From Myxococcales bacterium (GTDB lineage: Bacteria > Myxococcota_A > Polyangia > Polyangiales > Polyangiaceae), in contig SECP01000027.1 of assembly GCA_004193285.1 (NCBI GenBank), positions 1 to 64,000 on the forward strand: a stretch of 64,000 bases of DNA. Direction: 5' to 3'. Positions 17,761 through 42,219 of the stretch are shown here, piece after piece (position 1 is the stretch's first letter; each line of letters opens with the position of its first letter). Both the position numbers and the translations under genes were made by a program. The notes beneath the pieces were generated by a model. It was not told where the DNA came from and ran no database searches. It saw nothing but the letters and a program-made list of their open reading frames with translations.

Positions 17761-19110
17761 ATGGTTGGCAATGAGCTCAGATTGGCCGAGCTGATTGGGG
17801 CGCTGAGCTACGCGCTCGACATCACGGAGGGTCAGCCTCAGGGGCATTGCGTTCGGGCGTGCCTCATCGGCATGCAGCTCGGACGTCGGCTTGGCCTCTC
17901 GGACGAGTCCTTGGCGGAGCTCTACTACACGCTGCTCCTCAAGGACCTGGGGTGCAGCAGTAACGCCGCCCGCATCTGCGAGCTCTACCTGACCGACGAC
18001 TTGACCTTCAAGCGGGACGTCAAGCGGCTGGACGACGCGGACTTCCTCAAGACGGTGCAGTTCGCGCTGGACCACACCGCGCTCGGCTCCGGCTTGTGGC
18101 AGCGGTTCAAGGTCCTGCTCGGGTCGCTCCGCACCAAAGAGTCGGTCGCGCAGGAGCTCATCGTGACTCGCTGTCAACGAGGCGCTTCCATCGCGCGTCG
18201 GCTGCGGTTCCACGAGCGCGTCGCCCAGAGCATTCACAGCCTGGACGAGCACTACAACGGCCAAGGCCGCCCCGAGCGCCTGGCCGGAGCGAACATTCCC
18301 CTGTACGCGCGCATCGCGCTCCTTTCCCAAGTCGTGGAGGTATTTCACTCGCAGAGCGGGCTCGACGCCGCGCTGGAGGAGGCCAAGCGTCGCAGCGGCA
18401 GCTGGTTCGACCCAGAGCTCGTCAGCGCTTTGCTCGATATCGGCGCGCACGACGAGCTGTGGCGGCACCTCGCCTCCCCCAACGTGGCCGAGCACGTGTT
18501 CGCGGCCGAGCCCGCGCAATTCTCGATCGTGGTGGACGACGACTACCTGGACGAAATCGCGGTCGCCTTCGGGGAGGTGGTGGACTCCAAGAGCCCCTAC
18601 ACGGCCGGGCATAGCGCGCGGGTGGCGCTTTACACGGATGCGATCGCGGAGGAGCTCGGCCTCACCGCGGCGCGGCGCCGCTGGCTGCACCGCGGGGCGT
18701 TGCTGCACGACGTGGGCAAGCTGGGCGTCAGCAATGCGCTCTTGGACAAACCCGGCAAGCTCGACGCTCCGGAGTGGGAAGCCGTTCGTAAGCACGCGGT
18801 GTTCACCGAGCAGATCTTGAGCCGCATCCCACAGTTTCGCGAGCTCGCGCTGGTGGCGGCGGCGCACCATGAACGGCTGGACGGCGCTGGCTACCCGCGC
18901 GGGCTTCGCGGCGGCGAGATCCTGCTGGAGACGCGCATCATCACCACCGCCGACATCTTCGACGCGATCACCGCCGAGCGCCCGTACCGCGCCGCCGTTG
19001 CGGTGCCGCGCACCCTAGAAATCATGGAGCAGACCGTCGGCACCGCGCTCGACCCGGAGTGCTTCGCCGCGCTCCGGCGCGTGGTGGAGACGCTCGCCGT
19101 CGCCGCGTAG
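17761..19110 (+). CDS. Tandem HD / HD-GYP protein, likely c-di-GMP phosphodiesterase
   Basis: 449 aa with two HD-type domains. The C-terminal one (about 265-445) is canonical HD-GYP: GHSARVALYTDAIAEEL, LLHDVGKLG, HHERLDGAGYP and ADIFDAITAERPYR. The N-terminal one (about 1-215) is a degenerate copy: GHCVRACLIGMQL, then LLLKDLG where HD has become KD, and HYNGQGRPERL in place of the GYP motif. The enzyme should cleave c-di-GMP with its second domain, the first being regulatory. No membrane or receiver domain. Precedes the encapsulin operon by 105 bases. Confidence 0.92.
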   Translation: MVGNELRLAELIGALSYALDITEGQPQGHCVRACLIGMQLGRRLGLSDESLAELYYTLLLKDLGCSSNAARICELYLTDDLTFKRDVKRLDDADFLKTVQFALDHTALGSGLWQRFKVLLGSLRTKESVAQELIVTRCQRGASIARRLRFHERVAQSIHSLDEHYNGQGRPERLAGANIPLYARIALLSQVVEVFHSQSGLDAALEEAKRRSGSWFDPELVSALLDIGAHDELWRHLASPNVAEHVFAAEPAQFSIVVDDDYLDEIAVAFGEVVDSKSPYTAGHSARVALYTDAIAEELGLTAARRRWLHRGALLHDVGKLGVSNALLDKPGKLDAPEWEAVRKHAVFTEQILSRIPQFRELALVAAAHHERLDGAGYPRGLRGGEILLETRIITTADIFDAITAERPYRAAVAVPRTLEIMEQTVGTALDPECFAALRRVVETLAVAA

Positions 19111-23659: not shown

Positions 23660-23959
23660 CTAGAGCTCGTAGTCGACGACGCGCCGCTCCGTGCGAAGCT
23701 GACCGATCAGCTTTTTGGCCGGCTCGTGCGCGGGGTGCTCGGAGTACTCGGCGAGCGCTTGCCAGCTGTCGTGCGTCGTCGTCAGCACCAGGTCAGCCTC
23801 CTGCTCGCCGCTGGTCAGGCCGATTCCGACCTCCATCTTCGTCAAGCCTGGCACCTGGCCGAACATGCCAAGTAGCGCCTGGCGCGCTTGCTCTGCCTGA
23901 GCGCGGCGGTCCTCGGCGGTTGGGCCCTTGAGCTTCCACATGACGATGTGACGAATCAT
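23660..23959 (-). CDS. Dabb-family stress-responsive alpha/beta-barrel protein
   Basis: 99 aa from ATG 23959. The start MIRHIVMWKLKG, the middle VPGLTKMEVGIGL and the HPAHEPAKKLI segment are the standard Dabb pattern (dimeric ferredoxin-like barrel). Members range from stress proteins of unknown role to small cyclases and decarboxylases. The frame continues upstream, but the family begins at this Met. Probably co-transcribed with the 54-aa gene downstream. Confidence 0.88.
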   Translation of the reverse strand: MIRHIVMWKLKGPTAEDRRAQAEQARQALLGMFGQVPGLTKMEVGIGLTSGEQEADLVLTTTHDSWQALAEYSEHPAHEPAKKLIGQLRTERRVVDYEL

Positions 23960-24115
23960 CGCGGCGCACGCTACCACGCGCAGGCCGACAGCCGCCGCGG
24001 AACTTTCCGGAGGGAGCGCCATGTTCGCGCGCCTGGGCGAGCCGCCGCCGCTGCTACCTCCTCAAAATCTCAGCTCAAAAACTGATCGGTTGGGAGAGCG
24101 GGAAGCTACAACGGT

Positions 24116-25555
24116 ATGCAGTTGCCTCGTGTCTGCCCGATGACTCCCGCATGCAGTTTCAGTGACAGATTCCGGGGATTGTCCTCCCCCACCCACCTCG
24201 GATTGCTGCTCGCGCTACTGCTCGGCTCGCAAACCGCGCACGCGCAGGTGCCGGCCGCTCCTGCCGAAACGGCGCCGCCCGGCGGCTCCTACGCCTCGCC
24301 GCCGGCTGCCCCGGAGCCCGCGGTCGAGCCCGCGGCGGACGAGCCTGCCCCAGCGCCCGCGGACGACGCAGGCGGCGTGGACGAGACAGGCGGCGGCAAA
24401 AAGAAGAAACGCAAGCACCGCAAGCCGACCGATGACGACGCAGATCCCGCGCCCGCGTCGGCGCTGCCGAAGGCGGAGAAGGTCGACAAGAAGCGCGACA
24501 AGGCGGGCAAGCACGACTTTCGTCTCAAGGGTCGCGTGCTCGCGCTCGCCGAGCTGTCGCATCGGCGCGAGCGGGTCGTCACCGTGGAGAGCGGCATCGT
24601 CGATCGTAACCGCGACGCGCTCGATCTCGAGCTTCAGAGCGCGCGCATCGGCGTCGACTACCGCTCCCCACTCCCGTGGCTCTCGGCGGAGGTAGAAATC
24701 GAGGTCGCCGGCAAAGTGGAAGCGAAGGACGCCTTCGTGAAGGCGGGCCAGCTGTTCTTCGTGAAGGCGGGGCGATTCAAGGTGCCGGCTCCTTCGCTCG
24801 AGCTCGCGTCGCCGTGGACCATCCCGCAGGTGCGGCGCGGCCTCGTGCACAACCTGCTCGTAGACTGGATGGACGTCGGGGGGCGCGCGCCGGGCGTGGC
24901 CTTCGGCTACCACCAAAAATCCGGCCTGCGTCCGCGGCTCACGCTGGGCGTGTTCCAAGGCTCCACGCTGGATACGGTGGTGCCCGGCGATCGCGACGTG
25001 CGGCTCATCGACCACGCGTCGCTCCACGCCCAAACGTACGCCGCGCGCGCCGAGATTTCACCGTTCGGAGTGGCGCTGGGCGTTTGGTACCAGCAGCGCG
25101 TGAACTCCATCGTCGTCAATCGCATCGAGCACTACGCCACGTTCGGTTTGGACGCGACCATCGACCGGAGCTTCGAGCACGGCGGGGTACGCGCATGGGT
25201 AGACGGCGGCGCCGGGCAGAGCCCGTACTTGCACGCCGACAAGCCCGGCAACGGCGACGCGGCGTGGTTCGCGTTCGGCCGCGCGCAGGTCGCCTACCGC
25301 TTCGGCGGCGTCGCGCAGGGCGATCCGTACCTGGAGCCCTTCGGTTTTTTCGCGGTCATGGATCCGGACACCGAGGTCGTTTCGGACCGGGTGACCGAGG
25401 CGGCCCTGGGCGTGAGCGTCGGCTTTTGGGACCGTGCGCGCCTCACCCTGCAAGGGGAGACGACGGCGGGGCAGCGCAACCTCCCCGCCGGCTTCCTCGG
25501 CGGGCAAACGCCGGATCACCAGAGCCTGCTGCTCCAGGCAGGAGCGCGCTTCTGA
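24116..25555 (+). CDS. OprP/OprO-like outer-membrane porin
   Basis: 479 aa. Signal peptide ending AHA-Q, then a Pro/Ala/Glu-rich stretch and a Lys-rich patch (GGGKKKKRKHRK), then a beta-barrel from about residue 130 to the C-terminal aromatic (ARF). Segments such as RIGVDYRSPLPWLSAEVEIEVAGK and VKAGRFKVPAPSLELASPWTIPQVRRGLVHN resemble phosphate-selective porins O/P. Alternating strands and a terminal Phe support an outer-membrane barrel. A second in-frame ATG at 24140 gives a tidier signal peptide. First gene of a five-gene unit; its stop overlaps the next start (TGATG). Confidence 0.85.
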   Translation: MQLPRVCPMTPACSFSDRFRGLSSPTHLGLLLALLLGSQTAHAQVPAAPAETAPPGGSYASPPAAPEPAVEPAADEPAPAPADDAGGVDETGGGKKKKRKHRKPTDDDADPAPASALPKAEKVDKKRDKAGKHDFRLKGRVLALAELSHRRERVVTVESGIVDRNRDALDLELQSARIGVDYRSPLPWLSAEVEIEVAGKVEAKDAFVKAGQLFFVKAGRFKVPAPSLELASPWTIPQVRRGLVHNLLVDWMDVGGRAPGVAFGYHQKSGLRPRLTLGVFQGSTLDTVVPGDRDVRLIDHASLHAQTYAARAEISPFGVALGVWYQQRVNSIVVNRIEHYATFGLDATIDRSFEHGGVRAWVDGGAGQSPYLHADKPGNGDAAWFAFGRAQVAYRFGGVAQGDPYLEPFGFFAVMDPDTEVVSDRVTEAALGVSVGFWDRARLTLQGETTAGQRNLPAGFLGGQTPDHQSLLLQAGARF

Positions 25556-27261
25556 TGTTCGTCGTCTTCGAAGGTATCGACGGCAGTGGGAAGACCACCA
25601 TCTCCAACCGGGTCGCGGCCGCGCTCACGGCCGAGGGGCTCTCGGTCAAGCACCTGCGCGCCGAGGGCAAGTTCGTGTCCCCGGTGTCGGAGGGAATCCG
25701 CGAGTTCGGGCGCAATTCCCAGAATTGGGACCTCTCCTGGCAGGCGGAGTTCTTGCTGTACGTAGCGCGCGACGTGCAGCTGATTCACGAAGCCTTGCGG
25801 CCGGCGCTCGCGGATCACGACCTGGTGCTGGCGGACCGCTTCCTCTACACGCCCGAGGTACTCGGCCGTCATGGCCGCCGCCTGCCAGAGAGCTTCACGC
25901 GGCCCATCCTCAGCGCGGCCGCCGACGGCCTGGAGCCAGACCTGGTGATCTTGGTGGACGTGGATCCCACGTTCGCGCGCGCTCGCCGTAAGTTGCGCAA
26001 GCTCTCCGAGCAACAAGCCAAGCCACCGTCGCGAAAAGGGCTCTCGGGCGTCGGCTTGCAGCAGCGACTGCGGCGCGGCTACCTGGAGATGGCGAGTGAG
26101 CACCCGGAGCGCTGGGTGGTGCTCGAGAACGAGGACGCGCTGGAGCGCAGCGTGGAGCGCGCGGTGGGCCTGATTCGCGCGGCGCACCGCGAAGGCGCGT
26201 CGCGCGCCATCGCGCGATTTCGCGCAGAGACGAAGCTCGCCCGGAGCACGACCCCGGTCTCCACCACGAAAGAGGCGCTCTCCGCCTTCTTGAAGGTGGT
26301 GGACGACGTGAGCGACCGCGAGCCGCGCGTGGCCGCCTACTTGCTGGGCGGTATGTTCGGGCCGCAGGTGGACGAGCGCCGCCAAGCGCTCTACGAGCGC
26401 GCGCCGGACGCCGTCCTGGCTGCCTCGCGTGACTTGCCGGACCCGGCGAGCTTCGAGCTCAGGCGCCGGGCTCGGCGCGAGCACCCGGGCCTTTCGCTGC
26501 GCTCACTCGGCCTCGCGCTGCGCAGCCCGGGGGGCTGGGAGCTGTGGGAAGAGCTGGCGGAGCTGGCTCCCGCCGACGCGCTGCTTTGCCTGACCGCGGT
26601 GGACGACGAGCGCGCTTGGCGCGCGCGAGAGCGCTTCTACGAAGCGAGCCCCGCCCTCGCAGAGCTGGCGATCGCGAGCCTGGTCGGAATCGGCTCCGCG
26701 CGCGCGGAGCAGTTGAGGAGCCGCCTCTTCGAAGAGCGCGGCCGTGAGCTGAGCCTCGGTTACGACGTCTCGCGCGCACTGGCCCGCTCCGTAACCGGTC
26801 TGGGCGACGAAGCGGCGTGGCGCTTTCGGCGCGCCGCCCGGCCCGCGGCGCCGGTGGCCGCGCTGGCTTCGCTCGTCGGCGTGAGCGACACGGAGAGCTG
26901 GAGCTGGCGCACGGAGGCGCTGCGTCGAGCGCCCAAGGTCGTGATGGCGACGCTGCGCGAGCGCACCGAGGAGGCGGCCTGGCGCCTGAGGCAGAGCGTC
27001 GTCGCGGACTGCAAAGAGGCGCTGGACGGCTTGCAAGGCGTGGACAGCGAGCCCGCGTGGGCCTTGCGAGAGGCGAGCCAAGACGTCTGGCCCTCCACGG
27101 TCGTGAAGACGCTCGGAAGGCTCGCGGACGGCCCGCGCGGCGACGCGCTCCTCGAGCGGCAACTGCAAAAATATCCCGACAACGTTTCGCTCCTCAAGCA
27201 CGTGTCGAGCATCGCGCTCGGCCTGCATCGCCTCGACCTCAACCCCGACGAATCAAGCTAA
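25555..27261 (+). CDS. Thymidylate-kinase-like P-loop kinase fused to W-x-x-R repeats
   Basis: 568 aa, against about 210 for ordinary dTMP kinase. Residues 1-210 are a dTMP-kinase-like domain: P-loop GIDGSGKTT at 7-15, the DRF motif (LADRFLYTPEV) and a basic lid RKGLSGVGLQQRLRRG. Residues about 260-560 are some ten helical repeats of 26-30 residues (one longer) with the pattern aW.lRe.a....P..v..sL.gv.d, best seen in AAWRFRRAA, ESWSWRTEA, AAWRLRQSV and PAWALREAS. They should form an alpha-solenoid. Because it sits in a phosphate operon, the kinase may not serve DNA precursor synthesis; its substrate is open. Start overlaps the porin stop by one base. Confidence 0.85.
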   Translation: MFVVFEGIDGSGKTTISNRVAAALTAEGLSVKHLRAEGKFVSPVSEGIREFGRNSQNWDLSWQAEFLLYVARDVQLIHEALRPALADHDLVLADRFLYTPEVLGRHGRRLPESFTRPILSAAADGLEPDLVILVDVDPTFARARRKLRKLSEQQAKPPSRKGLSGVGLQQRLRRGYLEMASEHPERWVVLENEDALERSVERAVGLIRAAHREGASRAIARFRAETKLARSTTPVSTTKEALSAFLKVVDDVSDREPRVAAYLLGGMFGPQVDERRQALYERAPDAVLAASRDLPDPASFELRRRARREHPGLSLRSLGLALRSPGGWELWEELAELAPADALLCLTAVDDERAWRARERFYEASPALAELAIASLVGIGSARAEQLRSRLFEERGRELSLGYDVSRALARSVTGLGDEAAWRFRRAARPAAPVAALASLVGVSDTESWSWRTEALRRAPKVVMATLRERTEEAAWRLRQSVVADCKEALDGLQGVDSEPAWALREASQDVWPSTVVKTLGRLADGPRGDALLERQLQKYPDNVSLLKHVSSIALGLHRLDLNPDESS

Positions 27262-27277
27262 ACTCAGAGACTTGCCG

Positions 27278-28021
27278 ATGAAGCTTCGCTCACTCTTGCC
27301 CCTAGTCATGCTCACGCTGGTCGGTTGCGGTACCGTGGATCCTTCGAAGCCTGACCCCCAGGGCGCAGGGGGCGAAGGAGCGGGCGGCTCCGGAGGCGAG
27401 ACGCCGGGGCCAGACGGGCCCCTCTTGCCATGGGCGCAAGGCAACGAGTGGACCTATCGCATCACCAAAGACGGCTTGACCAGCGTCAAGACCACGACCA
27501 TCGGCGAGCTGGAAGCGGTCGGTGGCAAGGGTCCGAACGCGGAGCTCATGGCCTACCACGTGGTCACCGCCAAAGGCGCGGAGCTCGCGGATCGCACCGA
27601 GAGCTGGCAAGCGCAGGATCCAGACAACGAGGACCGCATCATCCGCTACCGCGAGCAATCCTTCGACGCGACGAGCGGCGACCTCGAGCTGGAGGAGTAC
27701 TGGGACCCGGCAAAGCTCCACATCGACGGCAGCGCCGAGCGCACCGTCAAAGAGGCGAGCTGGCTCGAAACGTACCAGGAGCACAAGCTCGAGGTCGGCC
27801 TCTCGCCCACCGAGCACGAAGTGCGAGAGCGGTGGACGGTGCTGGACGACGACGCCACCGTGACGGTGCCGGCCGGCACCTTCGAGCACGTGATCCACTT
27901 TCAAAAAATCGGCGGGAGCAGCACCAAGGAATATTGGTACCTGCGCGGAGTCGGCAAGCTGAAGGAGACGGGGTCGCAGACCGAAGAGCTCACGGAGTAC
28001 TCGGTCGAGGAAGCGCCGTGA
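27278..28021 (+). CDS. Lipoprotein of the phosphate/polyphosphate operon
   Basis: 247 aa from ATG 27278; a TTG two codons earlier is less likely. Lipobox LTLVGC, a short Gly-rich linker, then one domain of about 200 residues starting LPWAQGNEWTYRITKDG and containing TVTVPAGTFEHVIHFQKI and YWYLRGVGKLKETG. These last segments are typical of periplasmic beta-sandwich lipoproteins that report on total surface or cell-wall state; no enzymatic motif is visible. Its stop overlaps the VTC gene start (GTGA), so it belongs to the unit. Confidence 0.88.
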   Translation: MKLRSLLPLVMLTLVGCGTVDPSKPDPQGAGGEGAGGSGGETPGPDGPLLPWAQGNEWTYRITKDGLTSVKTTTIGELEAVGGKGPNAELMAYHVVTAKGAELADRTESWQAQDPDNEDRIIRYREQSFDATSGDLELEEYWDPAKLHIDGSAERTVKEASWLETYQEHKLEVGLSPTEHEVRERWTVLDDDATVTVPAGTFEHVIHFQKIGGSSTKEYWYLRGVGKLKETGSQTEELTEYSVEEAP

Positions 28022-28872
28022 GCGTCCCCTCGCCCGCCCTGGATCGCGCGCGCGCGGCGCTGGCCGACGCGGCGATCACGGCGGAGCGAGAGGAGACCAA
28101 GTACCTGGTAGAAAAGCGGGATTTGCCGGGCCTGCTGCGGCAGATTGCGGCCGAGCTCGAGCCTCATCGCTTCACCGGTGAAGCCGCGAACCGGCTGCCG
28201 GGCGCCGAGCACTTCGTCACCACCATTTATTTCGATACGCCCGGGCTCCGCTACTACCGGGCGTCGCAGCAGAACCAGCACCACAACCTCAAGATCCGCG
28301 CCAAGGAGTACTACGACCTGCACCCATCGCTGGCGGAGCTGGCGACCGATCCCGAGCAGATCCTGCGCTACCAGCCGTGGCTCTGGTTCGAGCTGAAGCG
28401 CCGCGAGGGCTCGGTCACCAGCAAGCGCCGCTTCCGGTTCCCCAAGGCCGCCGCCGCCACCCTCTTCGAGCAGCGCGGGTTCGCCTGCGAGCTTCCGTCA
28501 CAAACCGCGGAAGAGCGCGCGGACGCAGAGGCGCTGGTGGAGCACGTGCGGGCTCAGGACGAGCCGGTCGTGCCGAGCGCGGTCGTCAACTACCGGCGCT
28601 TGTCGTTCCAGAACGCGGACGGCACGCTGCGGGTCACGGTGGATCTCGCGCTGTCGTACTTTGCGGTTCCGGCGGACCTGTTTCGCCGCGCTCGCCCCCT
28701 CTCGCGGAGCGAGCTCGGCAAGCCGCTCGGGGTCGAGCCACGTGCGGTGGTGGAGGTGAAGCGCCGTACCGACCTGCCCACTTGGCTCGGCAGCGCCCTG
28801 AACGCCGCCGCCGGCCCGCCCGTCACCTACAGCAAGTTCGTGGCTGCGAGCGGAGCTCTGCATGGCGGCTGA
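28018..28872 (+). CDS. VTC-domain protein, probable polyphosphate polymerase
   Basis: 284 aa. The VTC domain is a triphosphate-tunnel fold that in yeast Vtc4 polymerises the gamma-phosphate of ATP into polyphosphate. Tunnel residues are visible in order: EREETKYLV, TTIYFDTPGLRYYR, NLKIRAKEYYD, WFELKRREG, VVNYRRLSF, RVTVDLALSYF and VVEVKRR near the end. No transmembrane helix or SPX domain, so it is probably cytoplasmic or held by a partner. Start GTG 28018 overlaps the lipoprotein stop. Ends 11 bases into the transporter gene. Confidence 0.9.
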   Translation: MSVPSPALDRARAALADAAITAEREETKYLVEKRDLPGLLRQIAAELEPHRFTGEAANRLPGAEHFVTTIYFDTPGLRYYRASQQNQHHNLKIRAKEYYDLHPSLAELATDPEQILRYQPWLWFELKRREGSVTSKRRFRFPKAAAATLFEQRGFACELPSQTAEERADAEALVEHVRAQDEPVVPSAVVNYRRLSFQNADGTLRVTVDLALSYFAVPADLFRRARPLSRSELGKPLGVEPRAVVEVKRRTDLPTWLGSALNAAAGPPVTYSKFVAASGALHGG

Positions 28873-30952
28873 GCCGACGAGCGCGCGCGGCAGCCGCTCG
28901 GGGAAGCTGCGGCTCCTGCTCGCGTGGCTGCTCACCGCCCTGATGGTCGGCGTCTATTTCAGCCTGCCGGACGGCGAAGACGCGCCGAGCCTGCAGACCG
29001 AAGGAGCGGCGCAGGAGCCAGACCCATCGCGCATCGAGGTCCTCGCGGTCACACCGGAAGCGGCCACGCCCGGCAGCGCCATCACGGTGCAGTTCGCGGG
29101 CGCGGCGCACGCCCGCGCCGTGACCGCCTCCGTCGGCAAGACGGAGCTGGAGGTGCTCTCGCGGTTGGACGACGCGCTCGTGGTGCGCCTCCCCCAAACC
29201 TTGGCCCCCGGTCACGTCAAGCTGCGCGTCGCGGACGGCCAAGAGCGCAGCAAGCCATATTACCTACGGGTAAAGCTCGAGAACTGGCGCAAGCCGTTCC
29301 GAAGCTTGGTCGGCGGCTTCGCTCTGCTCATCTTCGGGATCGGCGTGCTCGGTCGCGGCGCGCGGGAGGCGGTGGGGCTGCGCAGCACCCACGCGCTGGC
29401 GCGCTGGGCTCAGCGTGGTCCGGCCGCGCTCGGCATGGGCATCGGCCTCGGCGCGCTTTCGCAGTCCACCACCGCGGCCGCGAGCGTGCTCTCCGGCCTC
29501 GTGAGCGGCGGCCTTTTAGCGCTAGGCCCAGCCGCGGCGGCGTTCCTGGGCGCACAGCTCGGCACCGCGAGCGCGCCGCTGGTGAGCGGCCTCTTCGACC
29601 CACGCGAAGGCTTGCTGCTCGTGGCGCTCGGCGTGATGTGGCTCGCCTTCACCACCACCCGGCGGGGCACCGCGCTCGCTCGGCTCACGCTCGGCGTGGG
29701 TCTCATCGCCTTCGGTTTGCAGACGCTCCGTCCCGGTTTCGAGCCGTTCGTGCACGATTCCGCGCTGCTCTCGCTGGTGCTGGAGCTGCGCGCCGCGAGC
29801 GTGCTCGGCGTCGCCACTTGCGCCCTGCTCGGCGCGGCGCTCGTCGCGATCTTCCAAGGCCCGGCGCCGGTGTGCGTGCTGGTTCTCGTGCTCGCCCAAA
29901 CCACCGCGCAGTGGGACCTGCGCACCGCGCTCTCCGTGCTCGCAGGCTCGGGCCTGGGCGCGGCGGTTGGCGCCTCCATGGCCGGTCTCTCCAGCAAGCG
30001 CTCACGCAAGCTCGTGCTGCTCAACTTGATGCTCGGCCTCGCCAGCACGCTGCTCGCCGCCTCGCTGGTAGACGTGGTCGCACACGTCGCGGATCTGCTC
30101 GTGCCCGGCGTGCCTCACGAGGTGCGCTGGGGTAAGCGCGTGCTCCTACCCCACCTCGGCTTGCACCTCGGCGTGGCTTTCGCGCTCTCTCAGCTGAGCG
30201 CCGCGCTGGTGCTGCTCCCGGCCAGCTTTCCGCTCGCGCGCCTGGTCGAGCGCTGGTTTCCGCAAGACGCGAAGACGTCGCTACCGAACGTGGGCGACGC
30301 GCTGCGCGTCACTCGGGTCCGCCTGCTGGAAGTGTGCGAAGCGCAGCTCGCCGCGCTCACGCCGCTGCGCGAGCTCGTCCTCGCCGGCGATCGCGACGCC
30401 GGGGAGCGAGTGGAGCACGCGCTCGGCAGCGCTCAGGCGCTGCTGGACGAGCTCATCGCGGGGCCCATGTTGGCGCTCGGCGACGCGCCGAATAGCCAAG
30501 CGCTACGCGGCGCCGCGCTCACGAGCGTGCAGCTGCAGCGCAGCCTGGAGGGGCTCGAGCGGCAGGCGGCGCGCTTCGTGGACGCACGCGTCGCCCTCTC
30601 CACGGACGCGCGCCACGCGGAGCTCGCCCCCGGAGACCTGAGCGCGCTCGAGCAAATGCACGACCTCTTGGCCAGCGCCGGCGCCGCCGTTCGTGACGCC
30701 TTGCGCGATCGCGCTACGGTGGATCTGGACTCGGCGCGGGCCAGCGAGATCGCGATGAACGCGCTCGAGGCCCGGTTGCGCAAGGGCGTGCTCGAGGGCG
30801 ACGCTCAAACCGTGCGCAGCCACTTGCTCGTGCTGAAGCTCGCCGACGCCTACGAGGCCACCGGCAACCAAGTCTATCGCCTCAGCGAGGCTCTCGCGGA
30901 GGGGGCTGCCGACCCGCAGCACGAATTGCAGAAGCTCACGGGGCGTCCCTAG
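28862..30952 (+). CDS. Na/Pi-cotransporter-like protein with TIG and PhoU-like domains
   Basis: 696 aa. A transmembrane helix (18-36) leads into a periplasmic IPT/TIG Ig-like domain (about 38-117: VTPEAATPGSAITVQF). The PNaS transporter region (about 140-460) has the first motif pair GALSQSTTAAASVL and GAQLGTASAP. In the second half the expected QSS has become FQGPAP and the GT motif GSGLGAA, so one substrate half-site is degenerate. The C-terminal 210 residues are helical like PhoU. It may import phosphate for polymer synthesis or have turned into a sensor. Overlaps the VTC gene by 11 bases. Confidence 0.88.
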   Translation: MAAEPTSARGSRSGKLRLLLAWLLTALMVGVYFSLPDGEDAPSLQTEGAAQEPDPSRIEVLAVTPEAATPGSAITVQFAGAAHARAVTASVGKTELEVLSRLDDALVVRLPQTLAPGHVKLRVADGQERSKPYYLRVKLENWRKPFRSLVGGFALLIFGIGVLGRGAREAVGLRSTHALARWAQRGPAALGMGIGLGALSQSTTAAASVLSGLVSGGLLALGPAAAAFLGAQLGTASAPLVSGLFDPREGLLLVALGVMWLAFTTTRRGTALARLTLGVGLIAFGLQTLRPGFEPFVHDSALLSLVLELRAASVLGVATCALLGAALVAIFQGPAPVCVLVLVLAQTTAQWDLRTALSVLAGSGLGAAVGASMAGLSSKRSRKLVLLNLMLGLASTLLAASLVDVVAHVADLLVPGVPHEVRWGKRVLLPHLGLHLGVAFALSQLSAALVLLPASFPLARLVERWFPQDAKTSLPNVGDALRVTRVRLLEVCEAQLAALTPLRELVLAGDRDAGERVEHALGSAQALLDELIAGPMLALGDAPNSQALRGAALTSVQLQRSLEGLERQAARFVDARVALSTDARHAELAPGDLSALEQMHDLLASAGAAVRDALRDRATVDLDSARASEIAMNALEARLRKGVLEGDAQTVRSHLLVLKLADAYEATGNQVYRLSEALAEGAADPQHELQKLTGRP

Positions 30953-31010
30953 GTTTCGCTCGTCGGCCGCAAGAGCGGCATTCGCTCGCAGTTGCGCACC
31001 TTGGCCGCGC

Positions 31011-31895
31011 TCAGGTCTCGCCGGCACGGCAGAGCGCGAGCCAGCTGGCGAGCGCGCGGCTCTGGAATTTTTGCCGGTGCACGACGAAGAAGAAGAAGCG
31101 TCGAAAATCTCGGCCCGGCACGCGACATGGGACCAAGCTCTGGTGCTTGAACGCGTCGGTCAGCGCGACGTGCGACACGCAGCCCAGGCCCAAGCCGGCC
31201 TTGACCGCGCTCTTGATCGCCTCGGTGTGCTCGAGCTCCAGCACGACCGTGAGCTCGGGCAAAAGCCCGTGCATGGCCCGCTCGAAGGTCTGACGGGTGC
31301 CGGAGCCCTGCTCCCGCAAGATCCAAGCGGCGCTCTTCAAGTCCGCGTCGGAGAGGCGCGCGCGCCGCGCTAGCGGGTGGCTCGGCGCGGCGAACACGCA
31401 CAGCTCGTCATCGCGCCAGCGCGTCACCTCCAGCTCCGCGTCCGAGACCTCACCTTCGACCAGTCCCACGTCGATCTCGAAGTTTTTTACCTGTCGGGCG
31501 ATCTCCACCGTGTTCGCCACGTGCAAGCGCACTTTCGACCCGGGGTGCTCGATCATGAAGCGCGCCATGAGCGGCGCGCACAAGTAGTTACCGATACTGA
31601 GCGTCGCCCCGACCCGTAGCTCCCCCGCCTGAGTCTCCCCGGCGAGCCCCGCCTCCAGCTGGCGCGCTTGCTCACACAGCGCCTCCGCCCGGGGGCGCAG
31701 AGACCGCCCCACCTCGCTCAGCTGCAACCGCTTACCGACCCGCTCGAACAGCCGCACGTCGAAGTGTCGCTCCAGCTCGGCGAGGGAGCCGCTGACCGCA
31801 GACTGCGACATCGCCAGCTCCTGAGCCGCCCGGCTCACGCTCTCGCCCCGCGCCACCGCCGTAAACACCTCTAATTGCCGCAGGCTGAAGCGCAT
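31011..31895 (-). CDS. LysR-family regulator, FinR-like
   Basis: 294 aa from ATG 31895 (MRFSLRQLEVFTAVA). Winged helix-turn-helix 1-60 with SVSRAAQELAMSQSAVSGSLAELERHFDVRLFERVGKR, then the effector domain. It is divergent from an fpr gene, the same arrangement as finR-fpr in Pseudomonas, where FinR activates fpr under oxidative stress. The name rests on context plus general likeness of the N-terminus. The frame extends upstream but would run through the operator. Confidence 0.9.
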   Translation of the reverse strand: MRFSLRQLEVFTAVARGESVSRAAQELAMSQSAVSGSLAELERHFDVRLFERVGKRLQLSEVGRSLRPRAEALCEQARQLEAGLAGETQAGELRVGATLSIGNYLCAPLMARFMIEHPGSKVRLHVANTVEIARQVKNFEIDVGLVEGEVSDAELEVTRWRDDELCVFAAPSHPLARRARLSDADLKSAAWILREQGSGTRQTFERAMHGLLPELTVVLELEHTEAIKSAVKAGLGLGCVSHVALTDAFKHQSLVPCRVPGRDFRRFFFFVVHRQKFQSRALASWLALCRAGET

Positions 31896-40107: not shown

Positions 40108-42219
40108 TCAATCCGGGTCGCCCGCGAGAGCTTGGGGGGTGAAGTCCGCGCGGATGGAGCGCTTGAGCTCGTCGAGCAGCTGCGTCTCCGTGCGCGATAT
40201 GTCCCCGCGCGGCTCCGGGCGCTCCGCCAGAGCTTCCACCAGCGGTGAGCGCACCGCTTCCGGCAAGAGGCTCTCGAGGTATTCGAGCGCGGTGCCGCGC
40301 AGCTTGCGGTCGTCCGTGCGGAGCCCTTGCCGGACCAGCTCCATCGAGCCGCGGGTGAGGGACAAGGAGAGCAGCGCGAACACGTGATCGCTGGCGTCTT
40401 GTGAGAGGGGGCCGCGCTCCAGCTCGGAGAGCGCCAGCGCGAAGACCTCTTTGCTGTCGGGCAGGAGGGCGCGGTCTTCTTGCGTCACTTCTGCCAAGGC
40501 CAGCGCGGCCCGGTAACGCACCTCCAGCGCCTCCGCCCCGAGCGCGCGGGTGAGCGCGGAGACGACGCGCGGACCTCGGAGGGCGCGCAGCACGTGCGGT
40601 ACGCGACGGCGCACCGCCAGCGGCGGGGAGCTACTGAGCATGACGTCCGCGAGCTGACCGACCACGTCCGGGCCCATCGAGCGCAGGGCGGAGAGCGCGG
40701 CTTTAGCGAGCTGGTCGGAGGCCAGGTGGGGGATCACGAAGGCGGCCAGACGCGGGTCCAGCGATGGCCGGCTGAGCACACTGCGGATCGCGGTTAGGTC
40801 GTGGCCGAGCAGCATTCGCACGTCGGCGACCAGCTTTTCTTGCTCGGCCGCGGTAGGGGGGGCCGCCTGTGCGCGAGCGGCTCGGTCCGCACGAGCGCGC
40901 TCGATCTCCGCGCGCAGCTTGTCACGATCGATGCCGAGGGTGGTGGCCGAGAGCGTGAGGCGCGCGGCCGGATCCTCGACCTCGACCGCTTCCACGCTGA
41001 CGGTGCCCGCGCGCAAGCTCGCCTCGAGCTCCGCAACGTAGCCCTGCCGAGCGCGTAGCGAAAGTAAGAGCGCGAGCGCGAACGCGAACGTGGAGAGGAG
41101 CAGCGGCACCCGCTCGATCAAAAGCGGAGTGCCCAGTGAGACGAGCAAGATGGCGAGGCTCGCGGCCGCGTCCCCCCCCTTGTCGAACACGACGTCGATG
41201 AGGGACTTGGTGGCGCGCTTGGTCGCGGACGGCAACGGCGTGAAGAGCGGCTCGAAAGCGCTCCGAAACAGCGACGGCCCGAGCGCCAGGTCCGCCCCGC
41301 GCAGGGCGCCCATGGACCCGAAGGACGGCGAAAGCGACGCAAACGCGCCCAGTCCCACGCCGAGGGCCGGAGAAACCGCCAAAGTGCCGCCCAAACCCAA
41401 GGTGTCGAACAGGGGTCTGGAGACGAAGGCCTGGAGCAGAAAGCTGAGCAGCGACCCGCCCGTGTAAAACACCGCGAAGAAGCGCACCAAGGACTCGGCG
41501 CTCCCGAAGCGTGCCTGCGCCGCTTGCTTGAGCGCGAAGTCTGCAAAAGCGGAGGCAGCCGCGGTGCTGCTGACGAGCAGCGCGAGGGTCCACAAGTAGC
41601 CGCTGAACTTGACCGGCTCCTGGACGCGGCTGGCGGGACCGCTCGAGGTGCTCTCGGTCGCAGCGAGGCGCTGCGAGCACGCTGCCGAGAGCAAGCAGAT
41701 GCCACCAACGAGCAGCAGGGTGCTGCGAGCGTCGAACCAGTGGGCGCCGCGCTCCATGGCCACGCCTCCCAGGAGGCCTCCCAGCGTCGCGCTCGCGGTG
41801 ATGCGACCCACCGCGCGCTTCATGGCGTGGGGATCGAGCCGCTCGTTCACCAACGACCAAAAGGCGCTGATCATGAGCGCACCGCCGATTGACACGTGCA
41901 GGTAGACGGTGAGCGCGATCGCGTGGGCCGCGACCGGCAGCAAGAGGTACTCGGTGAGCGACAGCCCGGCGCTGACCACGAACAACAAGGGAGTCAGCCG
42001 GTCCGGGCCGTGCCGCGTCATCAGCCGCGAAACCAACAGCACGATGGGGATGGCGAACAGCGCCGAGCCCAGCATCACCTTGGGCAGGTCCTGGACCTTG
42101 AAGATGGAGAGGAATAGCCCCTCGCGCAGCGACTTGCCCGCCACCTGGTGGGCGATGGCCAGGGCCGCCGTGAGCATCGCGAGCCGGACGGCGTGCCCTT
42201 CGGCGCGTGAGCTATCCAC
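40108..42219 (-). CDS. MFS/ATP:ADP-antiporter-like transporter with HEAT-type tail
   Basis: 703 aa from GTG 42219. About twelve hydrophobic segments fill residues 10-400 and resemble the NTT/MFS-related nucleotide transporter group. The rest, to 700, is helical repeats (LAAFVIPHLASDQLAKAALSALRSMGPDVVGQLADVML ... PHVLRALRGPRVVSALTRAL) like HEAT. NTT proteins with HEAT tails are known in some bacteria; free-living species probably do not use them for ATP theft. Substrate unknown. Divergent from the SRPBCC gene at 42589. Confidence 0.87.
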   Translation of the reverse strand: MDSSRAEGHAVRLAMLTAALAIAHQVAGKSLREGLFLSIFKVQDLPKVMLGSALFAIPIVLLVSRLMTRHGPDRLTPLLFVVSAGLSLTEYLLLPVAAHAIALTVYLHVSIGGALMISAFWSLVNERLDPHAMKRAVGRITASATLGGLLGGVAMERGAHWFDARSTLLLVGGICLLSAACSQRLAATESTSSGPASRVQEPVKFSGYLWTLALLVSSTAAASAFADFALKQAAQARFGSAESLVRFFAVFYTGGSLLSFLLQAFVSRPLFDTLGLGGTLAVSPALGVGLGAFASLSPSFGSMGALRGADLALGPSLFRSAFEPLFTPLPSATKRATKSLIDVVFDKGGDAAASLAILLVSLGTPLLIERVPLLLSTFAFALALLLSLRARQGYVAELEASLRAGTVSVEAVEVEDPAARLTLSATTLGIDRDKLRAEIERARADRAARAQAAPPTAAEQEKLVADVRMLLGHDLTAIRSVLSRPSLDPRLAAFVIPHLASDQLAKAALSALRSMGPDVVGQLADVMLSSSPPLAVRRRVPHVLRALRGPRVVSALTRALGAEALEVRYRAALALAEVTQEDRALLPDSKEVFALALSELERGPLSQDASDHVFALLSLSLTRGSMELVRQGLRTDDRKLRGTALEYLESLLPEAVRSPLVEALAERPEPRGDISRTETQLLDELKRSIRADFTPQALAGDPD

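Follow-up and report, generated by a model that had tools for sequence, protein, structure and literature searches.

The TMPK-repeat gene and its neighbours

The 64,000-nucleotide stretch analysed here (the window: positions 1 to 64,000 of contig SECP01000027.1 in GenBank assembly GCA_004193285.1, a Myxococcales bacterium of the Polyangiaceae with a genome of 8.66 Mb in 119 contigs) was found to carry, at 25555-27261 on the + strand, an open reading frame for a 568-residue protein in which a kinase domain of the thymidylate kinase (TMPK) type is followed by a long repeat region. The frame and coordinates were checked, and the stop codon ends at 27261. The gene, here called the TMPK-repeat gene, is a paralogue of the housekeeping tmk, encodes a kinase domain with altered residues at the thymine pocket, and is linked across genomes to a gene for a VTC-domain polyphosphate polymerase. 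Its product is a real, conserved and non-standard member of the TMPK superfamily; its genomic partner is clear, and its function is one that we infer. The closest relative from a named genome, a protein of a Polyangiaceae metagenome-assembled genome, shares 83% identity over all 568 residues and has the same neighbours; the scan of contigs from named genomes was for close relatives only and gave this one locus (L015; L, G and C numbers are our own for loci, genomes and contigs). The features are as follows.

25555..26190, + strand: TMPK-like kinase domain, residues 1-212 (PF02223, TIGR00041, model alignment to 4edh)
25567..25599, + strand: P-loop FEGIDGSGKTT, residues 5-15 (sequence and family alignment)
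25768..25779, + strand: R72-D73-V74-Q75, the R-[D/E]-x-Q motif that replaces the thymine-binding Arg of TMPK (21-member alignment, comparison with TMPK)
25834..25866, + strand: DR motif (94-95) followed by FLYTPEVLG, where TMPK has S..AYQ (alignments)
26032..26049, + strand: lid signature RKGLSG, residues 160-165 (21-member alignment)
26320..27198, + strand: 27-residue two-helix repeat region, residues 256-548 (autocorrelation, unit profile, helix pairs in the AlphaFold model)
24116..25555 (alternative start 24179), + strand: Porin_O_P-type outer-membrane porin (syntenic homologues, linked to the window gene by hidden Markov model)
27308..28021 (alternative start 27272), + strand: lipoprotein-like protein (retained nearby at 17 of the 26 loci compared)
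28018..28872, + strand: VTC-domain polyphosphate polymerase (PF09359, 94.3 bits for a cut-off of 23)
28862..30952, + strand: Na/Pi-cotransporter-like membrane protein (PF02690, E 6.2e-17, over cut-off)

The TMPK-repeat gene is the second in this tightly packed + strand run of porin, TMPK-repeat, lipoprotein-like, VTC and Na/Pi-cotransporter-like genes. Its ATG (25555) shares one base with the TGA of the porin gene, and overlaps of 4 and 11 bases join the lipoprotein to the VTC gene and the VTC to the cotransporter gene. The polyphosphate operon mentioned in a preliminary description of this DNA was borne out by the VTC gene at 28018 and the cotransporter-like gene at 28862. The porin of the window had no Pfam match over cut-off, and three of the four syntenic homologues scanned matched Porin_O_P (PF07396) at or over it; a homologue of the lipoprotein-like protein (at L017) matches PF21347 (DUF3108_like). 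A search for sigma-70-like promoters in 23900-31100 returned none, a result that is little informative for a genome of this kind.

The kinase domain and its relation to thymidylate kinase

The TMPK-like domain recognised in the preliminary description was confirmed by PF02223 (Thymidylate_kin; residues 5-199, E 7.5e-20, 71.8 bits for a cut-off of 27) and by TIGR00041 (dTMP kinase; residues 1-197, 92.9 bits for a cut-off of 83.25). The predicted model aligned with Pseudomonas aeruginosa TMPK (4edh) over 206 residues with Z 25.5 at 1.9 Å, which identifies the TMPK fold; the full-length fold search was informative for residues 1-215 only.

For comparison 26 loci were collected, 25 from the sampled genomes, including the window, and L015. 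The alignment was built from 21 proteins, with identity to the window protein down to 29%. It excludes L155, which fails the P-loop pattern, L157 and L161, whose frames are broken, and L021 and L026, which carry pieces of a single gene split between contigs. Of note, the gene is split over two frames at L157 (G406) and L161 (G449), by assembly error or decay. Residues F5, E6, G7, D9, G10, G12, K13, T15, R35, S42, R49, R72, D/E73, Q75, D94, R95, R144, R160, K161, G162, L163 and G165 are fixed in 21/21; for K13 and the rest of the P-loop this carries no independent weight, the members having been chosen by a P-loop pattern that requires Lys. Four further N-termini lie outside the alignment; three of them (L026, L157, L161) keep the P-loop and R-E-x-Q, and the fourth, L155, is degenerate at both the P-loop and DR.

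The excerpt of PMC3619541 used here describes thymine in Mycobacterium tuberculosis TMPK as bound by Arg74 and Asn100 and stacked upon by Phe70, with the phosphate held by Arg95. The equivalent positions, as read from the alignments, are D/E73 (21/21), A/P/Y/S100, Y69 (20/21) and R95 (21/21), and at position 103, the equivalent of Tyr103 in AYQ, L, I or M is found in all 21, such that the thymine-recognition residues are not retained. Compared with eight TMPKs from viral contigs and with the ordinary tmk products of the class, the window kinase has neither EPGG, nor the Arg of FAADR, nor AYQ after DR. Thus the domain is like Tmk (PF02223, TIGR00041) in its fold, P-loop, DR motif and catalytic and phosphate-binding arginines, and unlike it in having D/E for the thymine Arg, no AYQ, a new lid motif RKGLxG, about 350 additional repeat residues and a second, ordinary copy in the genome.

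These residues suggest that the grip on the acceptor phosphate is kept and that base recognition has changed. Since the phosphate-binding residues are retained while the thymine Arg has become D/E and AYQ has gone, the acceptor is, with good confidence, probably not dTMP. A nucleoside monophosphate kinase of other specificity (e.g. for CMP, dCMP or AMP), with D/E73 reading an exocyclic amino group and the operon providing an ATP/ADP-balance context, would agree with the retention of R49, R95 and the stacking Y69 (20/21) beside D/E73 in 21/21; it leaves unexplained both the repeats and the occurrence of VTC in all 25 genomes with the fusion, and we regard it as improbable.

The genome of the window gave two PF02223 matches, the TMPK-repeat gene and a better-scoring ordinary tmk on contig C41 (L001), which is the second copy that the preliminary description had proposed to look for. 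Sequences of ordinary tmk genes were obtained from 13 of the 25 fusion genomes; L164 and L232 yielded none. In a tree of 72 kinases the 21 fusion kinases formed a single clade (FastTree support 1.0, branch 0.81). The fusion was present in 25 of the 192 genomes of the class sample (match better than 1e-60), which span eight family labels (f1, f7, f10, f12, f13, f14, f17, f71); G455 and G456 are counted among them, their flanks not being part of the locus comparison. In the phylum sample a match to the C-terminal part was found in 10/377 genomes, and the fusion is thus not standard in the phylum, a point left for checking in the preliminary description. An eleventh match, in G082 (L013/L025), was dropped for a stop in frame, L025 being an ordinary tmk; the repeated scan gave 11/377, the same ten and G172 (E 5.6e-4, 64 columns). 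Because an ordinary tmk exists in the genome, the fusions form one clade and only 25/192 genomes have them, the TMPK-repeat gene is a paralogue of tmk and not the housekeeping gene. A phage or plasmid origin was set aside: the 61 viral contigs with a match covered residues 1-221 only, and no plasmid record covered 80% of the query.

The housekeeping Tmk of these bacteria mostly lacks the Walker A Lys (GxDGxGTTTQ in place of GKTT) and keeps the dTMP motifs, in 16/16 sequences read in the class and 26/29 in the phylum sample, two genomes being common to both samples; a literature search for Tmk function without this Lys returned nothing. On another view the TMPK-repeat protein is a plain dTMP kinase whose C-terminal extension is of no consequence, serving as a back-up for a tmk without the P-loop Lys. 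The TIGR00041 score over cut-off and the missing Lys in 16/16 speak for it, while the loss of the thymine-pocket residues in 21/21, the operon context and the fact that most genomes of the class have no fusion, and hence depend on the Lys-less Tmk, make it very improbable.

The C-terminal repeat region

The repeats following the kinase were evaluated by autocorrelation of the column profile over residues 255-555, which peaked at lag 27 (0.164) with harmonics at 53 and 55; the maximum in 500 column shuffles was -0.071, and the kinase part gave no peak of this kind. A unit profile found 150 units of at least 8 bits in the 21 family proteins, one in 420 shuffled C-termini and none in 21 kinase domains, counts that attest internal consistency and not independence, the profile having been built on the same family. 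The unit consensus is P-x-x-V-L-x-S-L-x-G-L-D-D-E-x-[AS]-W-x-L-R followed by about 7 residues, with R in 99%, A/S in 99% and W in 71% of units. The spacing and consensus of the W-x-x-R repeats given in the preliminary description were therefore right (period 27), and its count of about ten was slightly high, as the window protein has seven clear units and one weak (5-10 in family members). The region is nearly charge-neutral (45 basic and 47 acidic residues in the window protein, most members being similar). This neutrality and the occurrence of Arg in 99% of units at one fixed position of the helix fit a structural Arg, and they weaken the earlier proposal that the arginines bind a polyanion, although the region may still present a basic face.

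The full-length AlphaFold model (best of five) had a mean predicted local distance difference test score (pLDDT) of 75, against 55-62 for the others, and a predicted template modelling score (pTM) of 0.43. It displays short helix pairs in the rhythm of the repeats, with block pLDDT of about 66-88 to residue 460 and 59-73 thence to about 550; the C-terminal region modelled alone reached 60.8.

The C-terminal region of the window protein has nothing over the Pfam or NCBIfam cut-offs. When the 21 C-termini were scanned against Pfam, with cut-offs compared for the window member only, the best E value was 0.0058 (XTBD, five members), and the one match of the window protein, FliX, stayed below cut-off (13.6 of 25 bits). 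The fold search with the C-terminal model gave as best importin alpha 3 (Z 8.3, root-mean-square deviation 14.9, 313 aligned), then importin-4 (Z 8.0, deviation 5.6, 255 aligned) and alphaRep (Z about 7-8), all at noise level for helical repeats, and Foldseek returned no match of this model at E 0.001. HEAT_2 compared with the repeat profile gave 5.6% in hhalign. In the searches of Pfam, PDB sequences and PDB folds, matches to ARM, HEAT, TPR and designed repeats were at noise level. The genome of the window has 68 HEAT_2 matches, of which a weak one is in the window at about 40474-40638 on the - strand.

The best remote profile was MgtE_N (PF03448), with hhalign 25% over 94 columns and E 7.7e-4 in a single comparison, which is not significant. 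None of 100 column shuffles reached 25% (maximum 2.7%), the reversed alignment gave 0.2%, and the kinase, VTC and Na/Pi-cotransporter profiles gave 0.2% or less. Independently of MgtE_N, a profile search of the PDB (HMMER) placed four FliG chains at the top (E 0.04-0.21, best E 0.043), the repeats of FliG being of a type similar to those of MgtE_N. The repeats share short two-helix units with these superhelical proteins, and differ in a period of 27 residues against about 24 (as read from L192) and in the Trp/Arg signature, which MgtE_N and FliG do not have. We take these signals as hinting at a solenoid remotely akin to MgtE_N and FliG and not as membership; the statement that the pattern has no named repeat family stands at the profile level (Pfam and PDB searches), with this remote link as its qualification.

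Association with VTC and possible function

A VTC gene was found in 182/377 genomes of the phylum and 76/192 of the class. All 25 fusion genomes have one, against 51 of the 167 without fusion (Fisher p 5e-12, uncorrected for relatedness). It lies within 2.2 kb of the TMPK-repeat gene at 17/26 loci, mostly together with genes of the phosphate-porin, lipoprotein or Na/Pi-cotransporter type; within 4 kb there is a porin gene at 18/26, a lipoprotein gene at 17/26 and a Na/Pi-cotransporter gene at 11/26. At least one of these four is within 4 kb at 23/26 loci, and at 24/26 all matches are on one strand. Two loci, L148 (at a contig end) and L154, have none of these neighbours, and L153 only a broken VTC gene 8.1 kb away; the latter (G475, 18248-18886) is in two pieces on the other strand, with another VTC match elsewhere in the genome. 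At L019, L020, L151 and L161 the cotransporter gene adjoins the kinase and VTC lies beyond. As gene order varies, the link to VTC is not a simple inheritance of one fixed block. It is very probable that the TMPK-repeat protein acts in the same process as VTC.

The VTC protein of the window is a bare catalytic domain of 284 residues. Invariants of its family include E109-x-K111, K120-x-R122, Y176-x-R178 and E230-x-K232, and a profile of 15 operon copies matched yeast Vtc4 (3g3q) with E 1.2e-17, aligned over the catalytic domain. E230 aligns with the Glu of the Vtc4 motif EVK, which we take to be E426. In the part of PMC9911596 available, Vtc4 with R264, R266 and E426 changed is described as catalytically impaired, and the yeast VTC complex is described with no counterpart of the TMPK-repeat protein. 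Thus the operon resembles the yeast complex (Vtc4/Vtc3/Vtc1) in the Vtc4-like catalytic domain encoded at 28018, and differs in that its VTC has no SPX or membrane domain.

The reading we tentatively prefer is that of a TMPK-derived phosphotransferase working with VTC, the solenoid being an adaptor. A tmk paralogue would have been recruited into a module for phosphate uptake and polyphosphate synthesis by VTC; with its TMPK fold, P-loop and phosphate-gripping arginines retained and its thymine pocket lost, it would most likely still transfer a phosphoryl group to an acceptor other than dTMP. That the kinase is catalytically active seems likely from the conserved residues. The C-terminal alpha-solenoid of 27-residue units may bind proteins and so keep the kinase attached to VTC or to the membrane partners of VTC, and such a docking role for the putative solenoid is somewhat favoured.

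As to the reaction, PPK2 is described in an extract of PMC8776046 as sharing ancestry and architecture with TMPK and as binding polyphosphate between core and lid. PPK2 (PF03976) is akin to the fusion in its P-loop kinase architecture and in its link to polyphosphate. Since it is a TMPK-like fold that handles polyphosphate, we consider the likeliest reaction to be one that connects nucleotides with polyphosphate, or with some other acceptor rich in phosphate, in the vicinity of VTC. Polyphosphate as the direct substrate, argued by this analogy, remains rather doubtful. A PF03976 match was found in one of ten members scanned (E 0.0051), and in the window protein none at E 1.

Several observations weigh against the preferred reading. 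The kinase-domain profile lies far nearer to Tmk (hhalign 99.9%) than to PPK2, with which two subgroups give 6.8% and 31.9% and ordinary Tmk gives 6.2%; the main subgroup is no closer to PPK2 than ordinary Tmk is. PPK2 occurs in 12/25 fusion genomes against 117/167 others (p 0.04), with four matches in the genome of the window. VTC does not adjoin the fusion in 7/25 genomes, some of these at contig ends. The solenoid model is of moderate confidence, both at full length (pLDDT 75, pTM 0.43) and for the C-terminal region alone (pLDDT 60.8). Last, G457 has two copies of the gene: L155, next to VTC, in which the P-loop is broken and DR is missing, and L154, at another place in the genome, which is intact. 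This situation resembles a pair of active and inactive forms. Separately, the fusion as a replacement for PPK2 was rejected, as PPK2 is present in 12/25 fusion genomes.

With the kinase site next to VTC wrecked at L155, the operon may have no need of catalysis, which keeps alive the reading of the protein as a subunit with an adaptor or regulatory role. Its TMPK domain would then serve for nucleotide sensing or for dimerisation, and the solenoid, as effector arm, would activate or position VTC, a task that falls to SPX domains and Vtc3 in the case of yeast Vtc4; chemistry would be secondary or absent. The bare catalytic domain of the operon VTC, the repeats kept in the G457 operon copy and the charge-neutral repeats, which look like a protein-interaction solenoid, are in line with it. 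The P-loop and R-[DE]-x-Q kept in 24 of 25 N-termini (21 of them P-loop-selected) and the lid motif fixed in 21/21 point to selection on chemistry; we consider the adaptor or regulatory reading rather unlikely, though a serious rival. Sequence cannot firmly choose between phosphotransferase and adaptor.

No partner of bacterial VTC was found described in a search of the literature limited to Creative Commons-licensed articles in PubMed Central. The operon may, though we hold this with limited confidence, represent an undescribed bacterial polyphosphate module, in which the TMPK-repeat protein is a dedicated VTC partner, either a polyphosphate/nucleotide phosphotransferase derived from TMPK independently of PPK2, or a switch coupling VTC to the nucleotide and phosphate state as a bacterial equivalent of SPX control; some genomes would then have both active and pseudokinase copies. 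A conserved partner made of a kinase and a solenoid offers a concrete and testable starting point on the feeding or control of VTC in bacteria. The fold of an essential DNA-precursor enzyme may also have been turned to polyphosphate on two occasions, the other one having led to PPK2.

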